Of a DNA stretch of 64,000 bases, positions 37,752 to 58,150 are shown in pieces. Under the pieces are notes generated by a model. It was not told the DNA's origin and did not search any database. It saw nothing but the letters and a program-made list of their open reading frames with translations. The stretch lies in contig NZ_CP058579.1 of the NCBI RefSeq assembly GCF_013402875.1, positions 3,472,001-3,536,000 on the forward strand, in the 5' to 3' direction. The first letter of the stretch is position 1, and each line of letters begins with the position of its first letter. Source of the stretch: Halorarum salinum (GTDB lineage: Archaea > Halobacteriota > Halobacteria > Halobacteriales > Haloferacaceae). The translations under genes and the position numbers were made by a program.

Positions 37752-37904
37752 ACCCCCAGCAGGGAGGCGTGGGACGTAAATACCGGGTGCCGCCGCCCCG
37801 ACGAGTGGCCGACCCCTCGACCGCCCGGCGCGCGCGACTCGAGCCCCCTCGTGGGGGTCTCGTGAGCGAAGCGAACGAGAGCACGCGGGTCGAGCGCAGT
37901 CGTT

Positions 37905-37954
37905 CGAAAATCGAAGATTTTCGTGATGACGAGAGACGCCTGTGGCGTCTCTCG
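37905..37954. repeat. Tandem perfect hairpins with 3-nt loops
   Basis: CGAAAATC-GAA-GATTTTCG (37905-37923) and an 11-bp stem CGAGAGACGCC with loop TGT (37930-37954) stand side by side in the 686-bp gene-free stretch 37752-38437. The stretch around them is rich in GAGCGAAGCGA-type direct repeats and contains no supportable gene. Confidence 0.75.
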
Positions 37955-38111
37955 AACCATGAGTCCCGCGAACGAGCACACGCGCGCGAGGGACGAGCAC
38001 CGCAGCGTGAGCGACCGCAGGGAGCGAAGCGAGGAGCGCAGGAGGCTGGTCACGCGAGCGAGCTTGCGAGCGAGGGTGACTTCCGAGGAGCTCGCTCCGA
38101 GGTAAGGGAGG

Positions 38112-38298
38112 GTGGGGTGCGGTCGGGCGGGACTGAAAGGGGCCGGGGCTTTCACGGGCGCACGCGCCCGTGAACTCGGGAGAGCGTGCTCTTCAGTAGG
38201 TCGGCGAACCCCGACGAAGCAAGCACCACAAGGAAGGAGCGCAGCGAGGCGCGGAAGCCGACAGCCGCGGGGGCTTTCACAGGACAGTGCCGCGACGG
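38112..38298. repeat. Intergenic repeat, family B copy 2
   Basis: This is the partner of 9925-10080: it shares GGGCGGGACTGAAAGGGGCC (38125-38144), AAGCACCACAAGGA and GCGGGGGCTTTC...CAGTGCCGCGACG. After the first block it carries a perfect 10-bp hairpin TTCACGGGCG-CACG-CGCCCGTGAA (38151-38174) that copy 1 lacks, plus a GTCGG/CCGAC-type inverted segment near 38202-38215. Confidence 0.65.
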
Positions 38299-38437
38299 TG
38301 ACCTCACGGGTTCCGGAACGGCTAGATACAGGGGACGTCCACGGGCATCGTAACGGCTAATCACCGACGCCGTCCGACCGACGGGGCCGCCGCTACCCGA
38401 ACCATCGAAACCGCAGAACGCGAAATCGAACGCCGGC

Positions 38438-57860: not shown

Positions 57861-58117
57861 GAACCTCCTTTGGCGGGGGCCTCCTCGCTCGGTCGCTTCG
57901 CTCCCTCGCTCGTCGACCCCCGCGAAGACCCGTTCATGCTGTGGGATTCCGGAGAAATCCCACTGCTGACGGGAGATCGAAGATTTCCCGTAATGCTGCC
58001 AGAACCCGTCGGTTTCTGGCCGCAAGACGAGCTTTGCTCGTCAGTGCCAAAACGCCGCTCGCTCGGTCGGCGGGGCTTCGCCCCGCCTCCCTCCCTCGCG
58101 GTGAGCCTGCTGGTGCC
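57861..58117. repeat. Intergenic stem-loop repeat, family A copy 2, expanded
   Basis: This is the inverse copy of 906-1060. It keeps the backbone: the AAAGGAGGTTC end (57861-57871), an outer 7-bp stem (57873-57879/57917-57923), CATGAACGGGT (57928-57938) and the 58045-58117 block with the GGCGGGGC-TTC-GCCCCGCC hairpin (58069-58087). At the point where copy 1 is continuous (TTTTGGCATGAACGGG) it carries about 105 extra bases with four further hairpins: 57941-57963, 57969-57991, 57998-58020 and 58026-58042. It begins 1 bp after the reductase stop. Confidence 0.85.
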
Positions 58118-58150
58118 ACCGCACCGCGACCGCCGGTACCGCAGCCGCCG

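Follow-up and report, generated by a model that had tools for sequence, protein, structure and literature searches.

A dispersed family of hairpin-bearing intergenic repeats in Halorarum salinum and other haloarchaea

The block and its genome-wide copies

The window, a 64 000-nt stretch of the Halorarum salinum genome, holds an intergenic segment at 37752-38437, flanked on the left by an S49-peptidase ORF and on the right by a DUF7121 gene whose reading frame extends to 38438. A sequence-only reading had called this segment gene-free and had placed three perfect hairpins in it, exactly where we find them: CGAAAATC-GAA-GATTTTCG at 37905-37923, CGAGAGACGCC-TGT-GGCGTCTCTCG at 37930-37954, and TTCACGGGCG-CACG-CGCCCGTGAA at 38151-38174. 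Two have stems of at least 10 bp, against a mean of 0.0125 in shuffled DNA (0 of 2000 shuffles reached two); at a stem of at least 7 bp the count is three against 0.47 (33 of 2000 shuffles reached three).

The same reading took the segment for a second block sharing a backbone with one at 9.9-10.1 kb (copy 1). The word GGGCGGGACTGAAAGGGGCC is common to the two, as it had proposed, and the 10-bp hairpin of 38151-38174 is absent from copy 1. The block does repeat copy 1, although a two-copy view is too small for a family of 60-95 copies. Nor are all the named hairpins parts of the backbone. The pair at 37905-37954 lies in a nested block inserted in a larger hairpin, A, and is absent from the orthologous copy in the congener G002; the hairpin at 38151-38174 sits within an arm of another, C, and the G002 ortholog has it too. 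Copy 2 therefore has two layers, a large element and small hairpin modules within it (Table 1). Copy 1 alone shows no enrichment of perfect hairpins, and its hairpin C is degenerate.

The genome-wide word search and the comparison with shuffled sequence that had been suggested both came out in favour of a family. The 4.26-Mb genome has 60 exact copies of the word GACTGAAAGGGGCC, spread over both contigs and both strands, and none of the reversed control. All 60 were read and oriented. Together they hold 38 hairpins with stems of at least 9 bp; dinucleotide shuffles give 2.15 (maximum 6), and pieces drawn at random from this genome 3.0. A chance origin is ruled out by the shuffles and the reversed-pattern control. 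Covariance model R1 gave 95 matches in this genome at E<=0.01, a figure that includes a few two-strand readings of one inverted copy or apical fragments, and we put the element at roughly 60 to 95 copies. Over all the DNA, hairpins (stem at least 8, loops 3-10) are in only about 1.5-fold excess because GC-rich coding DNA yields many chance hairpins; the excess resides in the elements. Several copies have no remaining hairpin. The most similar pair is 82% identical over 429 bp; as no copies are near-identical, nothing points to a recent burst.

Table 1. Features of element copies 1 and 2 in the window
Feature	Position	Strand	Sequence and basis
Copy 2 of element	37825..38278	+	Approximate 5′ end CCGGCGCGCG, 3′ end GGGGGCTTTC; single orientation, nested insertions; comparison of 60 copies
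Hairpin A (CGGCGCGCG...CGCGCG), split by nested block	37825..37982	+	Insert-free copies read GAGCCCCCTCGTGGGGCGAGCACACGCGCG; G002 alignment
Nested hairpin block with GAA-loop and TGT-loop hairpins	37858..37972	.	~115 bp; missing from G002 orthologous copy
Hairpin B, GAGGGACGAGCACCGCAG...GAGGAGCGCAGGAGGCTG	37983..38048	+	Recurs upstream of most copies; unrelated hairpin instead in G002 ortholog
Second nested hairpin block, TCACGCGAGCG...CGCTCCGAGGTAA, inside GGCTG^GGGAGG	38049..38105	.	Same insert in L037, L038, L042, partly in L009, and in G002 ortholog
Invariant 5′ word GGGCGGGACTGAAAGGGGCC, copy 2	38125..38144	+	Copy comparison
Hairpin C, copy 2	38131..38278	+	GAAAG/CTTTC foot, variable stem, apical module AAGCACC..GGAGCGCAG; fold
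Nested double hairpin (TTCACGGGCG-CACG-CGCCCGTGAA, then CGGGAGAGCGTGCTCTTC) in 5′ arm of hairpin C	38151..38197	.	Also in L020, L045 and G002 ortholog
End GCGGGGGCTTTC of copy 2 hairpin C	38267-38278	+	
Inverted end of copy 1, left half (GCGGGGGCTTTC on minus strand)	9700..9711	-	Inverted repeat I9
Word GGGCGGGACTGAAAGGGGCC of copy 1	9935..9954	+	
Hairpin C of copy 1, degenerate stem	9941..10061	+	Ends GCGGGGGCTTTC at 10050-10061; fold

Arrays of linkers and hairpins similar to the 37858-37972 block occur in L005, L037, L042 and L046. At 37905-37954 and in the regions upstream in L037 and L042, they are tandem hairpins with unrelated perfect stems and constant linkers (GTTC.., GTGATG, CGCTGA, GTACTG, GAACCA). 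They are probably what the earlier reading named family A, and would then form a distinct family of small hairpins lodged within the elements. Elsewhere in the window we noted a 200-bp direct repeat at 91% identity (15206-15716) and a 72-bp inverted repeat at 94% (903-974 and 58049-58120) that spans 57 kb.

Architecture of the element and fold of hairpin C

The minimal form, found in other genera, is two C hairpins head to head over about 250-330 bp, with inverted ends. Its clearest copies, in Haloarcula rara (L115) and Haloarcula mannanilytica (L153), end CAGCCAGAAAGCCCC...GGGGCTTTCTGGCTG, and close variants of these ends occur in L126, L144 and L148. In genome G046 we read eight pairs of this kind, mostly with a centre of just some 10-40 bases. 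The window's genome has a longer element, in which hairpins A and B and a G-rich spacer precede C; it also has head-to-head pairs, 300-420 bp apart. Copy 1 retains an inverted end together with C, its left half having lost the GACTGAAAG word; copy 2 is a single C end carrying three nested blocks. Model matches cover hairpin C of copy 1 (G000:C1:3481931-3482067, E=6.5e-13) and of copy 2 (G000:C1:3510121-3510284, E=3.2e-4). The ancestral unit was probably the head-to-head pair, of which the single C and the versions bearing A and B would be derivatives.

Hairpin C is ~115 nt long, with the GACTGAAAGGGGCC word as its foot. Nearly all intact copies fold in the same way, through GAAAG/CTTTC pairs, a GGG/GGG internal loop, a 14-bp stem and a middle stem to an apical module. 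The strands of this module, AAGCACCGCAG and GAGGAGCGCAG, are near-invariant and can be read as a dyad, each of them giving RA-GS-A-SC-GCAG. Across 22 aligned copies, two-sided change is seen at 11 of the 14 stem pairs; double-sided covariation amounts to 53 cells, against 13.6 after shuffling (0 of 500 shuffles reached it) and 6-16 when the structure was slid. The pattern that the earlier reading had described, of constant words separated by variable hairpins, holds across the genome and across the class. Runs of the form GGG.GGG.GGGG...GGGGG were also noted, a possible G-quadruplex.

GCGAAGC-type loops are unusually stable DNA mini-hairpins. Among 85 parsed apical loops 82 are triloops, with ties resolved by the parser toward three-base loops; 60 are GNA and 57 C(GNA)G. 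A GCGAAGC-type mini-hairpin is used, for example, in PMC4686876. Mispairs in 145 distinct stems comprise 60 G.T and 18 A.C (p=2e-6, the copies not being independent), and with the two innermost positions left out 36 and 13 (about 0.001, by our own arithmetic). This bias suggests that the strand reading GACTGAAAGGGG is the one that folds, whether as RNA or as single-stranded DNA; mutation that favours one strand would likewise give a G.T excess.

Some copies are rearranged. The apical part is inverted relative to the foot words in L012, L028, L039, L041 (+ copy) and L054, so inversion between stem arms happens. Downstream of the element in L004, L024, L045 and L048 is a 57-bp tail unit that ends GGGGGCTTTC and repeats the 3′ arm of hairpin C, which suggests a slippage duplication. 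The hairpin at L265:848-965, whose left arm is GGGACTGAAAGGGGCC and right arm ..GGATGCCGAGCGGCCGAGGGCTTTC, with the junction within the apical module, looks like a chimera of two subfamilies.

Distribution and comparison of orthologous sites

At E<=1e-4 model R1 matched 103 of 141 good haloarchaeal genomes, in 39 of 49 genera, and it had matches in 28 of 40 relatives; the genomes sampled from other orders of the phylum gave none. Copies per genome in the order run from 0 to about 80, in a patchy pattern that extends to closely related genera. Among the named genera with the word are Halobaculum, Haloarcula, Haladaptatus, Halorussus, Halosimplex, Haloglomus, Natronorubrum and Halonotius. Related stretches occur in 21 haloarchaeal plasmid records; 20 of these are annotated, and in none does the best match overlap an annotated gene; placement was intergenic wherever annotation existed. 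Rfam covariance models did not match the element even at E<=1, finding only tRNAs in the window itself; nothing was found in phage records, and a literature search turned up no description of the hairpin-C family. Word matches in non-archaeal assemblies were treated as chance or contamination, as those tested (Cyclobacterium L122, Corallococcus L124, Desulfobacteraceae L176, Nitrospirae L190) have the word and no model match.

Both copies in the window vary between species. Copy 2 is absent from the congener G001, which has about 65 bp between alignable flanks versus 613; G002 has it, minus the 37858-37972 block and with an unrelated hairpin in the place of B. G001 likewise lacks copy 1, which is present in G002 with another double hairpin inserted. 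At one site in another genus the element is present in G046 and G069, the site is short in five species, and three have other sequence.

The sister species G046 and G069 allow a broader comparison, made over regions around G069 matches at E<=0.01: 12 of 28 G046 element loci coincide with a G069 element. At these sites the flanks are about 86-91% identical and the words agree at 16-20 of 20 letters, and in 6 of 11 hairpins the arms are alike at no more than 6 of 12. The arms of these six pair with their own-species partners at 10-12 of 12 positions (one exception, 8) and across species at 5-8. Two of the other hairpins are essentially unchanged, and three have largely compensated changes. Since 6 of 11 stems are unrelated and nearly all of these self-complementary, stems are often replaced as units. 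The stem GAGGCTGTGGAC recurs in both genomes at different loci, which agrees with exchange between copies; independent insertion at the same site could instead account for the replacements. Another site has an internal deletion between TCGACCGTC direct repeats.

Neither the minimal elements nor the G046 site showed a target-site duplication, no junction there being clean to the base. Nor was a clean empty site found at copies 1 and 2, at three further G002 sites, or at one site in ten species, because the flanking intergenic DNA is too diverged or the difference is an internal deletion.

Possible mechanisms and related systems

We interpret the block as one member of a family of short mobile repeats in haloarchaea that carry no transposase, akin to MITEs or short mobile repeats (SMRs), whose ends are read as folded DNA and whose stems are exchanged. 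We lean modestly towards this account of a family with dispersed high copy number, patchy spread across the class, presence/absence between species, conserved words, covarying stems, stem replacement and nesting. Each end would be recognised by its hairpin fold in single-stranded form, on the strand whose 3′ direction leads to the element end (GACTGAAAGGGG...GGGGGCTTTC), and a recombinase or transposase supplied in trans would move the element; among the loci examined we saw no autonomous copy or transposase with these ends. Hairpins may be exchanged between copies by gene conversion, with the fixed words and apical module serving as homology, and one stem arm may template repair of the other. 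Smaller hairpin modules would insert into the element's palindromes, which would account for the GAA- and TGT-loop hairpins at 37905-37954.

Among described elements the closest are SMR-A and SMR-B, short mobile repeats of Haloquadratum walsbyi whose mobilisation their authors called enigmatic (PMC3119063). Both families are short and non-coding with dozens of copies, and both show nested insertion into the palindromes of other elements; SMRs have inverted terminal repeats unrelated to known transposons and show no target duplication (PMC3119063). SMR types are commonly more than 95% identical and belong to one species (PMC3119063), whereas here only words and fold are kept over a class-wide spread, the best pair being that at 82%, and stems are replaced at orthologous sites. 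PATEs and IS200/IS605 share with it near-terminal hairpins, heterogeneous copies and repeat-mediated core deletions (PMC3119063), and the single-strand recognition of IS200/IS605 is the mode proposed here for the element. PATEs lack inverted terminal repeats and are related to IS605 ends (PMC3119063), whereas the minimal element here is an inverted repeat; no transposon with its inverted ends was seen among the loci examined.

REP/REPIN-RAYT systems likewise comprise high-copy extragenic palindromes, often in inverted pairs, with a possible linked single-copy gene (PMC3116915, PMC2817692, PMC3733652). REPs are 20-40 bp with GTAG/CGTC tags and a Y1 gene, unlike the present ~115-nt hairpin with its GACTGAAAGGGG/GGGGGCTTTC feet (CTTTC in the latter) and its linked gene for an OB fold; among the loci examined, no Y1 transposase was identified. 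We know of no class-wide conserved words in mitochondrial double-hairpin or repetitive hairpin elements. These too are mobile palindromic repeats without a coding gene (e.g. PMC2800124, PMC5910586). They lie in organelle genomes and share no sequence with the family. Integron attC sites are recognised as folded single strands, with variable stem letters and conserved structure. Unlike them the element has no RYYYAAC/GTTRRRY core and no integrase link, its invariant base being GACTGAAAGGGGCC / GGGGGCTTTC.

A rather unlikely alternative, which the strand bias would suit, is that the hairpins are structured RNA (sRNAs or UTR structures) under transcript selection, spread as regulatory cassettes. 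The strand-specific excess of G.T over A.C would fit RNA hairpins too, as would the strong covariation around conserved internal-loop words and the stable predicted RNA folds, and C(GNA)G loops also occur in RNA. Against this, the minimal element, being an inverted repeat, folds on either strand, no promoter is seen by eye in its short centre, and the loops are DNA-type triloops rather than GNRA/UNCG tetraloops. The apical inversions in L012, L028, L039, L041 and L054, the wholesale swapping of stems between sister species and the lack of an Rfam match speak against it as well.

A C-type hairpin lies 0.4-0.7 kb upstream of an OB-fold gene, always pointing away from it, in four plasmids and in 6 of 20 genome loci located by protein search (E<0.001); further loci have a related hairpin by eye. 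By our own estimate this is far above chance, since at most ~2 hairpins per 100 kb would give about 0.2 of 20. The ~290-aa product has a C-terminal OB fold resembling replication factor A. The gene could be a dedicated partner, as in REP/RAYT systems, with the dispersed copies as its satellites or binding sites, and in low-copy genomes (e.g. G009, G012) the gene-linked copy stands alone or has few companions. We consider this quite unlikely: the protein matches only OB-fold/replication-factor-A models, with no nuclease or other catalytic domain seen, some gene loci have no hairpin, and G025 and G030, with 42 and 56 hairpins, have no full-length gene, both assemblies being incomplete. The association is real, but with the gene missing from these two high-copy incomplete genomes it was rejected as a necessary partner, and the protein is a weak candidate only. 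Upstream of the gene, ~450 nt of noncoding DNA are conserved, and the hairpin sits at their end. This stretch (L260:1957-2508, with equivalents in L259, L263, L264-L268 and L282) is hairpin-rich, is strongly conserved across genera and plasmids and has no credible Rfam match; it might act as a plasmid origin or as a large structured leader.

Fixed structural sites kept by selection (for nucleoid organisation, supercoiling or bidirectional termination), with presence/absence reflecting loss, would suit the intergenic placement, the words kept while stems diverge and palindromic pairs that work in both directions, but are very unlikely given 0 to about 80 copies among genomes of one order and only 12 of 28 sites common to two close species.

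A bolder extension of the mobile-repeat account, which we think doubtful, is that the family's identity is inherited as a DNA fold and not as sequence, with dedicated machinery, possibly involving the OB-fold protein, that would recognise hairpins in single strands by their C(GNA)G loops and swap entire stems from copy to copy. If true, orthologous elements of sister species carry stems that are unrelated yet self-complementary.

Haloarchaeal intergenic DNA is rich in unannotated hairpins, and part of it now has a defined family with a covariance model, approximate boundaries and a host range. The family poses a puzzle in that both stem arms change together faster than the flanking genes. It also opens the 'enigmatic' mobilisation of haloarchaeal short repeats to tests in species that can be cultured.
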